Both the position numbers and the translations under genes were made by a program. Shown one piece after another: positions 1-11,086 of a DNA stretch of 41,584 nt. How positions within the stretch are numbered: the stretch's first letter is position 1; every line of letters begins with the position of its first letter. The DNA comes from Candidatus Kuenenia stuttgartensis. Lineage in GTDB: Bacteria > Planctomycetota > Planctomycetia > Pirellulales > UBA1268. Under the pieces are notes generated by a model, which did not search any database, had not been told where the DNA came from, and saw nothing but the letters and a program-made list of their open reading frames with translations. The stretch is from positions 1 through 41,584 of the forward strand of contig CAMCQY010000017.1 in the NCBI GenBank assembly GCA_945877135.1, given 5' to 3'.

Positions 1-263
1 TCGAGCCTGCTGCCGTCGCCAAACGCATCGAGATAGCAGCGGGTCGCCGCGGCCTGCTCGTTGCCAGCAGGCAGGGCCTCGAGAGCCAGCAGTGCATCGA
101 GTGCAAACGACGTGTAGTAGAGATCGGGCCGGCCGCCGCGATTGCAGTAGCCACCGCCTGGGGTCGCGAGCGACTGGAGAAACGACACCACGAGTTCAGT
201 CGCCTCGCCGAGCGTCCGCCGGGCGAGGCGGGCCACCTGCAGCATCTGCAGTCGCTGGCTCAT
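1..263 (-). CDS. Prenyltransferase/squalene-oxidase (terpene cyclase alpha/alpha barrel) repeat protein, N-terminal part, truncated by window edge
   Basis: Own translation of minus strand from ATG 263: MSQRLQMLQVARLARRTLGEATELVVSFLQSLATPGGGYCNRGGRPDLYYTSFALDALLALEALPAGNEQAAATRCYLDAFGDGSRL. The GGY.....PDLYYTSFALDAL pattern is typical of prenyltransferase-beta/squalene cyclase repeats. ATGA overlap with the upstream gene stop at 260-262. Not in the supplied ORF list because it runs off the window. Confidence 0.7.
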   Translation of the reverse strand, partial: MSQRLQMLQVARLARRTLGEATELVVSFLQSLATPGGGYCNRGGRPDLYYTSFALDALLALEALPAGNEQAAATRCYLDAFGDGSRL

Positions 264-2062
264 GCCGTCGCAGCCGGGCTCGCGGCGGCTGACTGTAGCC
301 CGGCGCCGTTCTCGCGGGCCACTTTCGCCTCCTGCTCGCGGCAGTAGCCCTCGAAGGTGAGCTCGTTGAACATCTTCGCCAGCACCCGCCGCAGCAGCCC
401 CTTCAGCGTCGCATCGGAGAGGCCCTCGAGGGCCCGCACCGCCTGCTCCTTGTAGCTCTCGAGCAGCAGCGCCGCCTTCTCGTCGGCCTTGGCCGTGCGG
501 ATCGCCTCGCGGAGACGGTCGGGCGTGGCGGCGGGATGGGGTTTTCCCGAGTTGATGGCCGCGAGCATCTCGCGGTCGTCGCCGCGAGCCCGTTCGGCCG
601 CGAGAGCGAGCACCACGCTCGGCCGCGACTCGACATTGCTGACAAGGCCCGCGTCATCGAGCATGTCTTCAAGGTCATCCTTGATCTGGTAGGCGATGCC
701 CACCGCCTCGCTGTAAGCCCGCAAGGCATCGGAGACCTCGTCCGCCCGGCCGGCGCCGATGGCAGCCAGTTGCAGCGCCACGTCGAACGCGGGCGATGTC
801 TTAAGCCGGAAGATCTCCAGCACCTGGCGGCTGGCCAACTGCGAGGGATTTCGGCTCCAGGCGAGTTCGGCGCCCTGCCCCTGACAGAGCAGCCGCTGCG
901 CGCCGGCGGCCTCCCGAACGGCGGCGCGGATGCGATCGGCATCGAGCCCCGACTCCGCCAGCAAACGGTAGCCCTCGCCGATCAGCAGGTCGCCCACGTT
1001 GAGTGCAATCGGCACGCCGTGCGCTCCGCAGAGCGTCGGCTCGCCATACCGCTCCAGATCACCGTCCTCGATGTCGTCGTGGACGAGCGACGCCTTGTGA
1101 AAACACTCCACAGCCACGGCGATCCGCTGGATCGCGTCGATCGCGTGGGTGTCGTGGGGCTTGATCCCATCGTGCTTCTCGTCGCCGTCAACAGGCCGCA
1201 ATGCCTCGAACACGGCCGCAGCCAGAAAAGGCCGCCAGCGTCGGCCGCCGACAGCCAGCCACTCCCGGCCGATCTCCTCGGCATGGCCCACCGGAGGCCC
1301 CATCAGCCGATCGAGCGCCGGCCGTTCGAACCACGTCTTCACGGTGTCGTGCAAGCCGCCGAGATCGAGCCGACGCGACCGGTCGGCCGCCTCGAGGTGG
1401 ATGTAGTCCCAGACCCAGTCCACATCGACCGTCGTATCGATGCAGTCGTCCTGCAGGAGCGGCACGGCCACTGCCGGAATCGCCGCCGCCTGCACGTGCG
1501 AAAATGTCTTTTCGAGCACAGCCATGCAGCTCACGCCGACGATCGCCTCGATCGTGCCGGTCTGCACCATCGCCATCACCAGTGCCGAGCCCTCGGCCAC
1601 GAGCACCGCGTAGCCAAGCCGCTCGGCCTCCGCCTGGAAATCCTGGATCGAGCAGAGGCCGCACTGCTTGCACAGCAGGCCGAATTCGTCGAAGGGCGCC
1701 GGGCAGCGGTTCTCCACCCGCAGGCACTTGGGCATGAGCAGGAGCCGGCGCTCGAAGGGCACAGCAGCGAGGGCGTCGCGCCACGACTCGTTATTGACCG
1801 TGACGACCGCGTAATCGAGAAACGATTCCGACAGGCCAGCGACGGCCAGCGCGGCGGTCGCCCGCCGCCGAAGTTCCTCCATGCCCAGTGGAGGCACGGC
1901 CCGGTCATGGGTCATCCCGCGACGCACGGCATCGCGGAGGGCATCGCGATCCGCCTTCGTCGGGGGGATGCCGGCCTGCGGCGGCCGCGACCGGATCACC
2001 GCCGGCGGCACCGGTGGCGGCAGGATCGCAAGCGCAATCGTCGCTGGGTCTGCGGTGGACAT
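260..2062 (-). CDS. DUF116 domain fused to polyprenyl synthetase (isoprenyl diphosphate synthase)
   Basis: N-terminal half Cys-rich (CLRVENRCPAPFDEFGLLCKQCGLCSI...GVSCMAVLEK), DUF116-like; C-terminal half has both Asp-rich motifs (HKASLVHDDIEDGD and YQIKDDLEDMLDD). Start chosen at MSTADPATIA because of the strong RBS aggagaggtg just upstream. Confidence 0.85.
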   Translation of the reverse strand: MSTADPATIALAILPPPVPPAVIRSRPPQAGIPPTKADRDALRDAVRRGMTHDRAVPPLGMEELRRRATAALAVAGLSESFLDYAVVTVNNESWRDALAAVPFERRLLLMPKCLRVENRCPAPFDEFGLLCKQCGLCSIQDFQAEAERLGYAVLVAEGSALVMAMVQTGTIEAIVGVSCMAVLEKTFSHVQAAAIPAVAVPLLQDDCIDTTVDVDWVWDYIHLEAADRSRRLDLGGLHDTVKTWFERPALDRLMGPPVGHAEEIGREWLAVGGRRWRPFLAAAVFEALRPVDGDEKHDGIKPHDTHAIDAIQRIAVAVECFHKASLVHDDIEDGDLERYGEPTLCGAHGVPIALNVGDLLIGEGYRLLAESGLDADRIRAAVREAAGAQRLLCQGQGAELAWSRNPSQLASRQVLEIFRLKTSPAFDVALQLAAIGAGRADEVSDALRAYSEAVGIAYQIKDDLEDMLDDAGLVSNVESRPSVVLALAAERARGDDREMLAAINSGKPHPAATPDRLREAIRTAKADEKAALLLESYKEQAVRALEGLSDATLKGLLRRVLAKMFNELTFEGYCREQEAKVARENGAGLQSAAASPAATA

Positions 2063-2114
2063 CGCGGGCACCTCTCCTGGGGAAAGCACAGTATGCCGTT
2101 TCACGCGGTCTTCG

Positions 2115-3029
2115 TCAGGCCGTCCCACCCGCATCAGCAGCTCCAGCCGCCTCTTTCGCGGCAGACGCCCGGGCAGCCGCCGCCTCGACCCGCCGCTGAA
2201 TCTCCTCGGGAGATGGCAGGGCATCGAGCACCTCGCGGGGGATTTGGGCCGCGTCGGCGAGTTTCGTGAGGCACCGCCGCCGTTCGCTCAGCGCCTGATC
2301 GGCACTCCGCTCCTTGGAAAACCTGGTCTTGGCGTCAGCGCTCCGCTCCCTGAGCTTGGCGTAGATGTCGCCGCCGAGGAGCGCGGAGATATCAACCTTC
2401 ATCTTCTCGCGGTGAACGTCCGATTCCGCCACCGGTCCGCCGTCGATCGGGCCCGCGTGATACTTCGGAAACATGATCGCCACCTCGGGGCAGACCCGCG
2501 AGCAGGCTGGGCAGTTGACCTTGCAGTTGGCCGGGTTCTCGACACGCAGCGTGTGGTCGGTCGCCACGCCGTAGACGTCGAACAGGCAGAAGCTCAGGCA
2601 CTGCATGCAGTTGGTGCACCGAGCCGTGTCGATCACCGGAAACCACGGCTTCCACGTCTCGGCTGTGTTGGCGATCGGTCCGTTGGCGACGGCAGACGCC
2701 TCCGGCGGCCGGTTCATCCGCCGCTCGCCCCGGGCCTCTTCGACGGCGGCGACGGTCTCGCCGACCGACAGCCCCGTGACATCGCGAATCGTAACGTCAC
2801 ACCGTCCACTGGGATCACTCACTACGGGCGGCCCGTCAGGAAAACAGCCGATCACGATCAATGCGCCGCCGGCCTGGAGGTCGGCCGCAGCCGCTCCGGC
2901 CCGCGTGACGGCATACCCGCGGTCGAGAAGCGACGCGAAGATGCTGGCTCGGTCGGTCGCGGGCAGCGGTATGGCCCCGGCACCCTCGTAGACGACCACC
3001 CGCGGCGGAAGCAACGCTTCAGCAATCAT
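2115..3029 (-). CDS. 4Fe-4S dicluster ferredoxin-type protein
   Basis: CTNCMQCLSFCLFDVYG ... CKVNCPACSRVCPEVAIMFP, two cluster-binding motifs; ATGA overlap with the upstream gene. Confidence 0.8.
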   Translation of the reverse strand: MIAEALLPPRVVVYEGAGAIPLPATDRASIFASLLDRGYAVTRAGAAAADLQAGGALIVIGCFPDGPPVVSDPSGRCDVTIRDVTGLSVGETVAAVEEARGERRMNRPPEASAVANGPIANTAETWKPWFPVIDTARCTNCMQCLSFCLFDVYGVATDHTLRVENPANCKVNCPACSRVCPEVAIMFPKYHAGPIDGGPVAESDVHREKMKVDISALLGGDIYAKLRERSADAKTRFSKERSADQALSERRRCLTKLADAAQIPREVLDALPSPEEIQRRVEAAAARASAAKEAAGAADAGGTA

Positions 3030-3418
3030 GATCGGGCTCCGTCGGGAGTCGCGAGCCCGCCGGCCAGCACGGCCTCCGCGGTATCGGTCCGCATGTTGAG
3101 AATCTCCACGCCCTGCTTCGGCAGCGGTGCATCGGCAAGGGCGAAGAGCCCCTGCACGGCCCGGGGCCAGCAGGCGAATATCCTGAGCGGACGATCGCCA
3201 CGGGCCAGTTCTGCCAGGTGCGGATCGCGACGGGCGGCCATCTCACAGAGATCGGGCACCATTTCAAAGCCACGGCCCGCCGCCGCGAGGCCCTCGAGCA
3301 CGGCATCCTTCACGGCGGCCGGTACCACCTGTGCATACGCGCAGCGGCAATAGAGGATCCGCGCGGCGTCGTCGGCCAGCATGGCGGCCGTTTCTGCCTG
3401 TGGGTGTGGCTCGGTCAT
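3026..3418 (-). CDS. Small protein resembling hydrogenase iron-sulfur subunit (FlpD/MvhD-like) or similar redox partner
   Basis: MTEPHPQAETAAMLADDAARILYCRCAYAQVVPAAVKDAVLEGLAAAGRGFEMVPDLCEMAARRDPHLAEL...; YCRCAYA/LCEMAA arrangement; ATGA overlaps on both sides. Family assignment tentative. Confidence 0.5.
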   Translation of the reverse strand: MTEPHPQAETAAMLADDAARILYCRCAYAQVVPAAVKDAVLEGLAAAGRGFEMVPDLCEMAARRDPHLAELARGDRPLRIFACWPRAVQGLFALADAPLPKQGVEILNMRTDTAEAVLAGGLATPDGARS

Positions 3419-4656
3419 GGGTGGATCCTTCCCGCCGTCGGATACGTACCGAAGTCGTTGAACCAATACCGCTTCGCAAAACGATACATCCAGTGCTTCT
3501 CCGGAATTTCGCGGCCCGGGAGATCCTGGCTCGACCGGGGCGTCATCGCCAGCAGCTCCTGGCGGGCGGTGCCACGCTGGGTCGTGTCGTGCGCCCCGTG
3601 GCGGTCGGCGATCTCGAGGATCAGACGCGGATTCTCGAGCACCACGCAGCCGCGGCTGTGTTGGGCTGCCGCGTCACGCATGTCTTTCAAAAATGCCGAC
3701 TGCGTCACCTGCTCGTAGAACGATCCCGTGCCGACCTTTTCTACCGCCAGTTGGATGATGGGGCAGGGTTCGATACCGCCCGACGGGCCGACATGGTGCG
3801 TGAGGCCGACCGCCATCGGGCAGAGCGCGTCTCCCTTGTCGTCGTAGTAGGCATCGACGATGGCGATCGGAAGCCTCGCCCGCTGCTCCACCACGAACTT
3901 TCGCACGCGAACGAGCTGGTCGGGCGTGAGCGCCAGTTCCGGCGACGCCTCGGGGCCAACCGGGCGATAGCCATGAAACCAGGCATAGTGCACGCCCAGG
4001 TCGATCAGCCGCCGGAGCCACTCTTCGGTGAGCATGGTGTCGATGTTGGAGCGACAGAGGCTCGTGGCCACGCCCGTGATCAGTCGAGCCTCGAGGCAGA
4101 TTTCGAGGCCACGCAGCGACCGGTCGAGTACCTGACGGCTGCCGCGACGGATGTCGCTCGTCGCAGCGTCACCCTCGATGCTCACCAGCGGCGTGGCGTT
4201 GCCGAGAGACTGCAGGCGGCGGGCCACCTCGGGCGTGATCAGCTGGCCGTTGGTGAAGATTTGGAAGTAGCAATCGGGGTGGGCGGCCAGCAGGTCGAGC
4301 AGCCGCGGGTGGAGGAATGGCTCCCCCCCGAGCAGCCCGAAGAACACGTTGCCGTGCGCCTTCGCGTCACGGATGAGTGCATCGAGCGTCTCGAACGGCA
4401 CCATCGTCCGCGGCGCCTGGACGTCAACCCAGCAGCCCTGGCACTTGAGGTTGCAGGAATTGATGATCGAGAGATGGAGGAACGGGGGGAAGACGACTCC
4501 GCGACGCTGTCTCGCCTTGAATTTCTCGACGGCGATCAGCCCCTTCACGCCAAAATTCCAGCCGAATTTCCAGAGGCAGTTGGGCGCCACCGACGACAGC
4601 ATGTGGCCGGCCATCTGGGGGAGGATCATCGGGGGTAGGCGTGGGAGTAATTTCAT
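3415..4656 (-). CDS. Radical SAM protein with SPASM-like C-terminal Cys region
   Basis: INSCNLKCQGCWVDV (CxxxCxxC), GGEPFLHPRLLDLL, FTNGQLI; C-terminal CPMAVGLTHHVGPSGGIEPCPIIQ. ATG at 4656 preferred over the TTG at 4683. Confidence 0.9.
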   Translation of the reverse strand: MKLLPRLPPMILPQMAGHMLSSVAPNCLWKFGWNFGVKGLIAVEKFKARQRRGVVFPPFLHLSIINSCNLKCQGCWVDVQAPRTMVPFETLDALIRDAKAHGNVFFGLLGGEPFLHPRLLDLLAAHPDCYFQIFTNGQLITPEVARRLQSLGNATPLVSIEGDAATSDIRRGSRQVLDRSLRGLEICLEARLITGVATSLCRSNIDTMLTEEWLRRLIDLGVHYAWFHGYRPVGPEASPELALTPDQLVRVRKFVVEQRARLPIAIVDAYYDDKGDALCPMAVGLTHHVGPSGGIEPCPIIQLAVEKVGTGSFYEQVTQSAFLKDMRDAAAQHSRGCVVLENPRLILEIADRHGAHDTTQRGTARQELLAMTPRSSQDLPGREIPEKHWMYRFAKRYWFNDFGTYPTAGRIHP

Positions 4657-4703
4657 GGCATTCAGAAGTATGGATGATTTCAAGCAGCGAGCAACCTCGC
4701 TCC

Positions 4704-4852
4704 ATGCAAGCCCGACGCGCCAGCGAGGGAATCCGCGTCGCGTTCCCGTAAGGCCATCCGCATTCCCTTGCTAGCGGTGCGGGCTTGGATGATGCAGTGA
4801 GGCACGCGCGGCCCACTCCCATGCAAGCCCGACGCGCCAGCGAGGAAATCTC
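4704..4852. repeat. Cluster of three copies (direct, inverted, direct) of a ~30-nt dispersed repeat (family B)
   Basis: atgcaagcccgacgcgccagcgagggaatccgcg (4704-4737); inverted copy attcccttgctagcggtgcgggcttgga (about 4762-4789); atgcaagcccgacgcgccagcgaggaaatc (about 4821-4850). Confidence 0.75.
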
Positions 4853-4884
4853 AGCGGCTGTTGGGTTGTCGCTCCCGTCCCCAT

Positions 4885-6000
4885 TTATACCCGCGCAGGG
4901 ATCCGGTGGGTCGGAACCGGCCTGCCCGGGCGGAAGTGTTCGAGATGCATGACCTCGTGCGGCACGTTTGCCGCCGCGGCCGATACCGCTGCCCGCACCG
5001 CCCGCTCCAGGTCTGCCGGGTCGGCCTCGGCCCGCAGGTTCACGAGCAACCGGCCGATATCCACCGGCTCAGCGAGCCGATGCGAGAGGTGGGCCACGTC
5101 GGCAGTGCGGACGAGATTCGCGGCGGCGAGTTCGTAGGGATCACCCTCGATCGCGAGCGTGCCCTTGAGATGCGCGATTTCGTGGCCGCTGGCGGCGAGT
5201 GCCTCGCGGATCTGCGAGAGGATCGCTACGAGCAGCGTGTTGCCGTCAAACTCAGCCGCATCAGCCGCCCCGATCCGCACTTCGGCATTGAGCCAGCCGA
5301 GAAGCGACTCCCCGAGCGCATAGCGGTCGTAATCGATCTCGGCGATCGCCGCCGCCTGCGATGCGTCGGCCAGCAGCCGTGCAAACCAAGGCTCGAGGCC
5401 TGTGCCGGCGCGGGCTGAGCATTCCAGGACGGATGCCCGCGGGTTCACTGCCGCGAGGGCTGTCCGCAGTCGTTCGAGCCGCGGGGCATCAACGAGGTCG
5501 CACTTGTTGATGGCGACGATCTCCGCCTCTTCCAGCTGCTTGCGATAGATGTAGCCAACGTGCTCGGAGAGTTTCGCGTCGGCAAGCCCCAGCACGCGTT
5601 CGGCCCGCAGCGGATCGACCACCACGCTCATCGGCGCCACCGCGAACCGGTCGCCGTAGATCTGCTCCAGCGGCAGCGTCACCGTCGCCACGAGGTCGGT
5701 GCAGCTCCCGACCGGCTCGGCGATCAGCACGTCGGGTGCGGTTTCCCGCACGAGCGACTCGGCCGCCTCGACCAATGACGTGAACCGGCAGCAGAAGCAA
5801 CCGCCCACGATCTCCTCGACGGGCATGCGGTGGGCCGCGGCGAGCGCCGTATCGACGAGCCCTCCACCCTGATCGTTTGTGACCAGCCCCACGCGGAGGC
5901 CACGGGCGGTGAGCCAGTCGGCCAGCCGCAGGATCGACGTCGTCTTGCCGGCCCCGAGAAAGCCGCCGACCATGATGTAGCGTGCTGTCGCGACGGTCAC
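4885..6000 (-). CDS. CobW/COG0523-family metal-chaperone GTPase
   Basis: GGFLGAGKTTSI Walker A, GGCFCCRFTSL (CxCC metal-binding motif), NKCDLV (NKxD). GTG start overlapping the upstream stop (GTGA). Confidence 0.9.
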   Translation of the reverse strand: MTVATARYIMVGGFLGAGKTTSILRLADWLTARGLRVGLVTNDQGGGLVDTALAAAHRMPVEEIVGGCFCCRFTSLVEAAESLVRETAPDVLIAEPVGSCTDLVATVTLPLEQIYGDRFAVAPMSVVVDPLRAERVLGLADAKLSEHVGYIYRKQLEEAEIVAINKCDLVDAPRLERLRTALAAVNPRASVLECSARAGTGLEPWFARLLADASQAAAIAEIDYDRYALGESLLGWLNAEVRIGAADAAEFDGNTLLVAILSQIREALAASGHEIAHLKGTLAIEGDPYELAAANLVRTADVAHLSHRLAEPVDIGRLLVNLRAEADPADLERAVRAAVSAAAANVPHEVMHLEHFRPGRPVPTHRIPARV

Positions 6001-6557
6001 ACATCGTCTCCCGGTTCAGACTCGGCAGATGGGGTGGGCATCTCGTGAGTATGCCCGTCGCCATCACTATAGCGGGATGCCTGCAGCTGATTGATCGTCG
6101 CGGTGAGCAGCGCGATGTAGCCGTGGACGTCGAGATGGCCCGGCGTGGGCGTGCCCTGCACCGCATAGAGCCAGCCGGCGCCGTAGGGGTCCGAATGCGT
6201 GAGGCACGCTTCGGCGGTGAGCGCCGGATTGGCCGACTGCAGCGTCCCATCGACCACGCAGAAGAGTTCGCTCACCGCCTTGAAGCCCTCGACGGTGCCG
6301 AGCCGCTCGCCGCCGGCGACAGTCTGGCCCGGCTTCACCTCGAGCACCATCTCCACCAGTTCGCCGAGCATCCGCGTGGCAAACTTCGTGAAGCCGACGT
6401 GCCAGAGCCGCGGCGTGTCGCCGCGAGCATCGAGAGTTCCCACGTCGTCGATGGGCCGGCCATCCGCGGGCCGCATCCAAAAATGCGACGGCGCGTAGAG
6501 GCAGTCTACGGGGAACCGCGCCGAAAAGTGGGCATGCCGAAAGCGGACGGTTTCCAT
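5997..6557 (-). CDS. GcvH-like lipoyl-domain protein
   Basis: METVRFRHAHFSARFPVDCLYAPSHFWMRP...HVGFTKFATRMLGELVEMVLEVKPGQTVAGGERLGTVEGFKAVSELFCVVDGTL; the VEGFKAVSEL segment matches the lipoyl-lysine site of glycine cleavage H proteins. Confidence 0.8.
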   Translation of the reverse strand: METVRFRHAHFSARFPVDCLYAPSHFWMRPADGRPIDDVGTLDARGDTPRLWHVGFTKFATRMLGELVEMVLEVKPGQTVAGGERLGTVEGFKAVSELFCVVDGTLQSANPALTAEACLTHSDPYGAGWLYAVQGTPTPGHLDVHGYIALLTATINQLQASRYSDGDGHTHEMPTPSAESEPGDDV

Positions 6558-6567
6558 GACTGAGATG

Positions 6568-7590
6568 CTATCCGCCTGCCACCCGCCCACGCAACGAACG
6601 CAGTCGGTCGAGCAGCCTTTTGATGTCGGCGGGCAGCGGGCTTTCGAAGCGGAGATCGACCCCTGTTTCAGGATGCACGAATCCCAGTTCGGCGGCATGC
6701 AGCATCACCCGCGGGGCCTGCGACGTGTCCTCCACTTTCATGTGCCGCGGGGCGGAGTAGACCCGCTCGCCGCAGACCGGGTGGCCGATCTCGGCAAGAT
6801 GGATACGGATCTGGTGGGTGCGGCCGGTCTCGAGCCGGCACTCGACGAGCGTGAAGGCGTCGCCGAAATGCTCGACGGGCTGCACGTGGGTAACGGCCCG
6901 CTTTCCTTCCTCTGTCTCGGACGACCCGCGACGGCCGTCACCGCGATCACGGACGAGATTCGTCTGAATCGTGCCTGCCCCGACCCGCCCCACGCAGATC
7001 GCGAGATACCGCCGGTGCGTCGTATGGGCCCGGAACTGTTCAGCGAGGATCCGCTCGGCCGGAACCGTGCGGGCAAACACGACAAGCCCGCTCGTCTCGC
7101 GATCGATCCGGTGCACCGCCCGCACCGGCGGGATGTGGCGGGGCTTTTTGTTGCCGCGGGCGCCGTGACGGGCGAAGAGATGCTTCGAGATGGCGTCGGG
7201 CACCAGTTCGTCGAGCGTCGGCTGCACCTGCCGCCGCCGCGTCGGCCAGGAGAGTTCCTCGGTGTGCCGCGTGGTGGTGATGCCGGTCGGCTTGTCCACC
7301 ACCACGACCTGATCGTCGAGATGGACGACCCGCACATCGTCGGCCTTTGGTGGCGCGGCCGCGGCCGCGGCGAGCACCTTCACCACCTCGCCATCCTTGA
7401 GCCGCCGCGCCGTGTCGGTGCAGATGTTGCCGTGGATCATCACCCGCCGCGACCGCACGAGCTTTTGTACTTGCGACCAGCTCGCCGCGCCGGAGTCACC
7501 CGCGGTCAGCTTGGCGCGGAGAAAGGCCGCGACCGTCTGGCCGCGGTCGGCGGCGGTGACATGGTGGACGATGCCGGGGGAGGGTTTCAT
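6568..7590 (-). CDS. RluA-family pseudouridine synthase with N-terminal S4 domain
   Basis: VRSRRVMIHG S4-like segment; HRIDRETSGLVVFART catalytic motif; ETGRTHQIRIHLAEIGHPVCGERVY. Confidence 0.93.
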   Translation of the reverse strand: MKPSPGIVHHVTAADRGQTVAAFLRAKLTAGDSGAASWSQVQKLVRSRRVMIHGNICTDTARRLKDGEVVKVLAAAAAAPPKADDVRVVHLDDQVVVVDKPTGITTTRHTEELSWPTRRRQVQPTLDELVPDAISKHLFARHGARGNKKPRHIPPVRAVHRIDRETSGLVVFARTVPAERILAEQFRAHTTHRRYLAICVGRVGAGTIQTNLVRDRGDGRRGSSETEEGKRAVTHVQPVEHFGDAFTLVECRLETGRTHQIRIHLAEIGHPVCGERVYSAPRHMKVEDTSQAPRVMLHAAELGFVHPETGVDLRFESPLPADIKRLLDRLRSLRGRVAGG

Positions 7591-9242: not shown

Positions 9243-10063
<821 letters not shown>

Positions 10064-10067
<4 letters not shown>

Positions 10068-11086
10068 CCCCCGAACGAGCATCGTCTGGGCATCCATCCG
10101 CTGCGCATGCGTCGACGGGGCGCACGTCTCCGCTACAGGCCGGCACGTCTCGGCGTGCTATGGTTCGCTCCTTCGGGTCTCGCGTTGTCTTCGCCGGCCT
10201 GATCACAGCCGCCTTCGCGACGCTCGCCTGGGCAGACTCGATCGGCCTCGGCGGCGCAATGCCCGCCTGGTGGCTGCTGCCGGTGGCGATTGTGCTGGCG
10301 GTCGGAAGTGTCACCGAGATCGTTCGGCTCTTCGCGGCGAGAGAGGTCCGACTGCCGGCGTGGCTGCTGCGACCGGCCGTGGTGGCGGTGGTGCTCTCTG
10401 CAGCAGCCGGCGCCGAGGCCTTTGCCGCGGCGTCGTCCGCGGCGTCGCCGGCTGCTGCGATGGGCTGGCCGGCGATCACGGTCATCTTCTCGATCATCGC
10501 GCTGTTCATCGTGGAGATCGCCACGTACAGTCCCAACGGAGCCACGATCGAGCGACTGGCTGCGGGTGCCTTCACGGTCGCGTTCATTGGGCTGCCGCTG
10601 GCCTGCATCGTGAGCCTGCGGCTCTTGTGTCGGGAGAACCTCGGACCGGAGCAGACCGGTCCAGGGCATCTGGGCATGCTGCCGCTCGTGAGTCTTGTCG
10701 CAGTGACAAAGGCGGGCGACATCGCGGCCTATCTGGGTGGCACGCTGCTGGGAAGGCATCGGATGGCGCCGAGCCTCAGCCCCGGCAAGACATGGGAGGG
10801 GGCCGTCGCGGCCCTCGTCGGGTCGTCTGCAGCCGCATGGATCGTGCTCGAGCAGTTCGGCAACGCCGGACCGTCGCGGCCGTGGGGCGGCTGGCTCGCC
10901 TTCGGACTCTGCGTGGGACTCGCCGCCATGATGGGCGATCTGGCGGAATCGCTGCTCAAGCGGGAGTGCGGGGCGAAGGACTCCGGCAGAACGCTGGGCG
11001 GCCTCGGCGGGTTTCTCGATCTCATCGATTCCCTCCTCTTCGCCGCCCCGGTGGCCTGGCTGTTGTGGGTGCTCGGCGGCCGTTGA
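10064..11086 (+). CDS. cdsA: Phosphatidate cytidylyltransferase
   Basis: Multiple TM segments; SLSPGKTWEGAVAALVGS and GDLAESLLKRECGAKDSGRTLGGLGGFLDLIDSLLFAAP signature. GTG at 10064 forms a GTGA overlap with uppS; alternative ATG 10160. Confidence 0.93.

Follow-up and report, generated by a model that had tools for sequence, protein, structure and literature searches.

What do a prenyl synthase, a class II terpene cyclase and a group of iron-sulfur (Fe-S) proteins make when their genes are kept together? The question is raised by a gene cluster at positions 3-6557 of a stretch of 41,584 nucleotides from Candidatus Kuenenia stuttgartensis (assembly GCA_945877135.1, contig CAMCQY010000017.1; the whole stretch is hereafter the window), where seven consecutive genes all lie on the minus strand. 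We propose, with a probability of roughly 0.6, that the cluster specifies a single pathway in which a long-chain prenyl diphosphate is turned directly into a polycyclic isoprenoid lipid, without squalene. An earlier note on this DNA had suggested a single system that builds and cyclises a prenyl chain and draws on Fe-S and radical SAM chemistry. Co-conservation of the genes bears out that outline, but not three of its parts, namely a repeat protein as the cyclase, an FlpD protein, and lipoyl and CobW proteins as core components.

Conservation of the gene set

Among 199 genomes drawn from Planctomycetota, a fusion of DUF116 with a polyprenyl diphosphate synthase is found in 49 (a list drawn up by hand from search matches to the full fusion), the cyclase subfamily in 46 (E < 1e-100) and the radical SAM enzyme in 41 (E < 1e-80). 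Fusion and cyclase are shared by 44 genomes (Fisher 6e-36) and the fusion is present in 41/41 radical SAM genomes (Fisher 7e-35), both values counting related genomes as independent. The pathway genes are usually single copy, and in G181, G069, G048 and G152 the radical SAM gene is far from the cluster and still present once. Moreover, the same genes are grouped together in other planctomycete neighbourhoods. Fusion, cyclase, radical SAM enzyme and their companions are one conserved system.

A scan with the cyclase alignment, using one genome per species, returned at least 575 relatives, and the best 80 loci were analysed. Their record titles name Planctomycetota, Verrucomicrobia, Lentisphaerae, Kiritimatiellae, Acidobacteria, Bacteroidota (Marinifilum, Labilibaculum) and Desulfobacterales; the gene set recurs in about five phyla, far beyond chance. 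Beside the cyclase we find the DUF116 fusion in 48 loci, the toroid gene that we call cyc in 53, a ferredoxin in 38, an FlpD-like gene in 31, the radical SAM gene in 29, GcvH in 19, a cysteine desulfurase in 17 and CobW in 16, counts in which many loci end at contig ends. Where the cyclase locus lacks the fusion (26 genomes), the fusion is found elsewhere in the genome in 22 and the radical SAM gene in 24. Gene distances correlate over 44 complete loci (Mantel r 0.64-0.95 on raw distances, shared ancestry included), and the minimal operon, from cultured Marinifilum, reads ferredoxin-radical SAM-fusion-cyc-cyclase. The earlier note had named a lack of co-conservation outside close relatives as what would refute it; we ran this test, the genes co-occur across phyla and the refutation failed.

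The grouping of GcvH, CobW, cysteine desulfurase and radical SAM genes in many clusters could also be taken to mean that the system serves lipoate metabolism or the maturation of Fe-S/lipoyl enzymes, and that the terpenoid genes are mere bystanders. This we regard as very improbable, as the fusion, cyc and the cyclase stay (48, 53 and 80 of 80 loci, many of them cut short by contig ends) whereas GcvH, CobW and IscS drop out (19, 16 and 17).

Completion of the locus and gene order

Base 1 of the window, which corresponds to contig C17 of genome G000, is a contig end, and the last gene of the series runs off there. This gene, cyc (3-263, minus strand, start at 263), supplies the N-terminal 87 amino acids of a single alpha-alpha-toroid (Prenyltrans-like) protein. 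The C17 end shares 149 identical bp with another contig of this genome, C143, which completes cyc to 302 amino acids. The next co-directional gene encodes a 611-amino-acid class II terpene cyclase (C143:897-2732) that contains both the N and the C domain of squalene-hopene cyclases as well as DADDT. Therefore, the full order in G000 is GcvH-CobW-radical SAM-FlpD-like-ferredoxin-DUF116/synthase-cyc-cyclase. All seven minus-strand genes lie where the earlier note had placed them, and the sequence confirms the 4-nt GTGA/ATGA overlaps it named at four junctions (GcvH-CobW, radical SAM-FlpD-like, FlpD-like-ferredoxin and synthase-cyc) as well as the gaps between ferredoxin and synthase (52 nt) and between CobW and radical SAM (228 nt). 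The leftward extension that it proposed to complete its cyclase did complete the gene, but the product lacks a DxDD motif and the true cyclase is the gene that follows.

The synthase fusion, the cyclase and cyc

The fusion (260-2062, minus strand, 600 amino acids) carries both of the domains ascribed to it at the outset in a single open reading frame (ORF), each above its Pfam cut-off: DUF116 (PF01976) at 127 bits against a cut-off of 25, and polyprenyl_synt at 121 bits. The DUF116 domain holds seven Cys, each conserved at at least 98%; a fold search with its model (predicted local distance difference test, pLDDT, 90) gave no significant match. Over 93 sequences the first Asp-rich motif of the synthase, DDxxD, is invariant, and the second is D/N-D-x-x-D with an invariant middle Asp. 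Ahead of this first motif, both positions that govern chain length are Ala/Ser; short-chain farnesyl synthases differ there. Two ordinary polyprenyl synthases are present in addition to the fusion in 15/17 genomes tested. A second, diverged DUF116-synthase paralogue of 667 amino acids, with several DUF116 Cys lost, also occurs in the window's genome (G000:C71, 1-18733, locus L051), accompanied by a HemN/HutW-like radical SAM gene and an FtsX/LolD-type ATP-binding cassette (ABC) transporter.

The cluster cyclases are proteins of 600-620 amino acids homologous to squalene-hopene cyclase (SHC). The DxDDT motif is present in 113/115 relatives, as DADDT at residue 356 in the cyclase of the window's genome, and the SHC-type catalytic His is kept as well: 'dltAHal' aligns with 'DVTAHVL' of a solved SHC, with the enzyme's own TAH at 423. 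Judged from these motifs, a predicted cyclisation step is well supported. The protein encoded by cyc, which had been proposed as the cyclase, does not hold that role: 73/80 relatives are without DxDD (just 7 have it), 56 have PDLLST at the equivalent place, and the window genome's own cyc lacks DxDD and has PDLLST. Because it is half-size and carries PDLLST in place of the acid motif, cyc is probably a toroid partner or carrier rather than a cyclase.

Relation to the hopanoid pathway

Cyclase genes of this kind, not necessarily of the cluster subfamily, have been interpreted as hopanoid genes in planctomycetes, as in Poriferisphaera corsica (PMC7783415). The homology to SHC, together with the retained DxDDT and His, would fit a pathway for hopanoids (squalene-derived triterpenes) that carries additional genes and in which the cyclase is a divergent SHC. 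However, against the NCBIfam hopene_cyclase cut-off of 431 bits the window genome's cyclase scores 62 and its relatives 88-137. Moreover, this genome holds a separate hopanoid locus (G000:C162, L173), where a true hopene cyclase scoring 458 bits, though truncated by the contig end, is followed by HpnH. Of 39 cluster genomes, 14 have no match to SQS_PSY (squalene/phytoene synthase), among them two Marinifilum, one Labilibaculum and the 99% complete G057; HpnH is absent from all 14. The hopanoid identity fails on the three features tested (hopene_cyclase cut-off, SQS_PSY supply and HpnH), and we rejected it, leaving the hopanoid explanation improbable. It is because squalene synthase is absent from part of the cluster genomes that we favour a prenyl diphosphate as the cyclase substrate.

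Redox and accessory genes

Three genes joined by overlaps encode the proposed redox part. The ferredoxin-type protein (2115-3029, minus strand) has an N-terminal domain without assignment, and two [4Fe-4S] motifs are present in 75/75 cluster ferredoxins; where the cluster is minimal, ferredoxin and FlpD-like domain form one fused protein. The FlpD-like gene (3026-3418, minus strand) encodes a small alpha/beta protein with four Cys, presumably acting in electron transfer. Its earlier identification as FlpD was not upheld: a profile search found no Pfam or NCBIfam FlpD match, and the best MvhD fold match of its model (pLDDT 87) was weak and non-significant (E 0.08, template modelling score 0.42). 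Homology to the HdrA N-terminus, suspected from the Cys spacing, gained no support from a sequence search. The SPASM/twitch-type radical SAM enzyme (3415-4656, minus strand, ATG at 4656 with an alternative TTG at 4683) carries CxxxCxxC plus CP-x17-CP; CxxxCxxC and the auxiliary-cluster Cys pattern are each found in 54/54 sequences, and no NCBIfam equivalog cut-off was reached. In G107, G145, G114 and G041, four genomes without the SPASM enzyme, and also in some Phycisphaerae, a radical SAM protein of the B12 type occupies its slot.

Upstream lie a COG0523/CobW-type GTPase (4885-6000, minus strand, GTG start; PF02492, 88 bits), with a GGCFCC-type (CxCC) metal motif in 38/38 sequences, and a GcvH-like protein (5997-6557, minus strand; a longer ORF opens at 6698), which matches PF01597 at 58.6 bits, falls below the gcvH equivalog cut-off and has a lipoyl-type Lys invariant in 27 sequences. 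A cysteine desulfurase adjoins the cyclase in many planctomycete clusters. The lipoyl and CobW proteins are not core parts, and neither has a cluster copy in Bacteroidota, Kiritimatiellae or most Phycisphaerae loci. GcvH, CobW and the cysteine desulfurase are accessory; the invariant Lys, the CxCC motif and the desulfurase suggest a supply of dithiol, metal and sulfur.

A proposed pathway

The synthase domain, whose motifs are in place, would condense isoprene units into a prenyl diphosphate that is predicted to be long. The class II cyclase would then protonate the far end of the chain by means of the DADDT acid together with the invariantly placed His, and close the rings. Electrons from the FlpD-like protein and the ferredoxin may drive the radical SAM enzyme and the Fe-S DUF116 domain as a putative dedicated relay, allowing the prenyl product or chain, or its diphosphate end, to be modified by low-potential reductive or radical chemistry. 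Where present, GcvH, CobW and the cysteine desulfurase could give dithiol, metal or sulfur support. We infer the redox step and the kind of product.

Several points weigh against this proposal. The cyclase substrate is deduced from the absence of other enzymes, and SQS_PSY enzymes are present in 25/39 cluster genomes, the window's included. The roles of DUF116, the radical SAM enzyme, the FlpD-like protein and cyc follow from domain type alone, and neither the DUF116 nor the FlpD-like model found a significant fold match. Finally, metagenome-assembled genomes (MAGs) make up many of the genomes, and the Fisher values treat relatives as independent.

The Fe-S part might instead substitute for squalene synthase, with the radical SAM and Fe-S proteins reductively coupling two prenyl diphosphates and the cyclase acting on the coupled hydrocarbon. 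An Fe-S DUF116 domain fused to a prenyl synthase would suit such a reaction, as would the reductive core parts and the lack of squalene synthase in many cluster genomes. However, the cluster is retained in the 25 genomes that do have SQS_PSY enzymes, the window's among them, and we consider such coupling unlikely. Polyprenyl diphosphate is also the usual tail donor for quinones, and the product could be no free terpenoid but the cyclised tail of a lipid with a head group, such as a quinone. The neighbourhoods of the cluster show no recurrent head-group prenyltransferase, and we give this alternative little credence. A pathway from prenyl diphosphate to a polycyclic isoprenoid remains our preferred explanation.

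Neighbouring genes

Genes for parts of ABC transporters (LolD/MacB ATPase, FtsX permease) and for pyrroloquinoline quinone (PQQ)-type beta-propeller proteins are repeatedly found next to the cluster in Bacteroidota, planctomycetes and verrucomicrobia (L100, L117, L164, L135, L144, L046, L079, L112 and L131), possibly as an export module. In six verrucomicrobial loci (L105, L106, L141, L147, L155, L156) the cyclase adjoins a DCC1-like thiol-disulfide oxidoreductase, and the fusion, where found, is elsewhere in the genome. Some Phycisphaerae (L101, L104, L090) have a MarR-type regulator and a DUF6132-thioredoxin fusion after the cyclase, and in L101 a major facilitator superfamily transporter sits between fusion and cyc. 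In a Kiritimatiellae MAG (L092:2-3573) benzoyl-CoA-reductase/double-cubane-like subunits and their activator ATPase lie upstream of the cluster. In the window itself, two plus-strand ORFs named by eye, one resembling undecaprenyl diphosphate synthase (9243-10067) and one CDP-diglyceride synthase (9959-11086), lie near the cluster on the opposite strand. Stand-alone DUF116 genes in four planctomycete genomes had an uninformative context; one adjoins a methionyl-tRNA formyltransferase-like gene.

Implications and comparison with known systems

We suggest that this pathway has been left unnamed across about five phyla because its cyclase resembles SHC. If our proposal is true, genomes that match the cluster cyclase should not be scored as making hopanoids, the DUF116 family, so far without a known function, gains a chemical context, and the product may be a membrane lipid leaving traces in sediments. 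A proposal reportedly made in 1982 derives tricyclic terpanes (cheilanthanes, C19-C54) from bacterial membranes. The source of these compounds, which are common biomarkers in petroleum, is debated (PMC10464518). Speculatively, tricyclic terpanes are the type of product that such a pathway could leave. It is a distinctly long shot that these bacteria are their long-sought source, by a route that could run anaerobically and lead from long-chain polyprenyl diphosphate to isoprenoids with three or more rings. The proposal can be tested directly with cultured strains of Marinifilum and Planctomycetales.

A search of open-licence papers found no description of the gene set, and four known systems resemble parts of it. 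HdrA/MvhD-type electron transfer proteins likewise combine a small Cys-rich domain with a two-cluster ferredoxin, but the cluster protein has no family match, and no flavin adenine dinucleotide (FAD) or HdrBC subunits are found in the cluster. With the hopanoid pathway (HpnC-D-E-F-H) the cluster shares the class II cyclase fold, the DxDDT acid, its His partner and radical SAM tailoring; it differs in not needing squalene synthase, in having its own DUF116-fused polyprenyl synthase and another radical SAM enzyme, and in a cyclase score under the hopene cyclase cut-off. In the Bacillus sesquarterpene route, which runs from heptaprenyl diphosphate through YtpB and SqhC, a long prenyl chain is likewise cyclised by an SHC homologue without squalene; here, the cluster showed no protein of the YtpB type, and an Fe-S/radical SAM module is added. 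Lastly, 7xq4 and 8zg0, class II (di/sesqui)terpene cyclases for which we take prenyl diphosphates to be the substrates, share with the cluster a class II cyclase fed by a prenyl synthase, whereas the cluster enzymes are of 600-620 amino acids, with an SHC-like DxDDT and His and with Fe-S/radical SAM partners. By these comparisons the set would work like the class II cyclase terpenoid pathways, outside the hopanoid pathway; as a set it is apparently undescribed.

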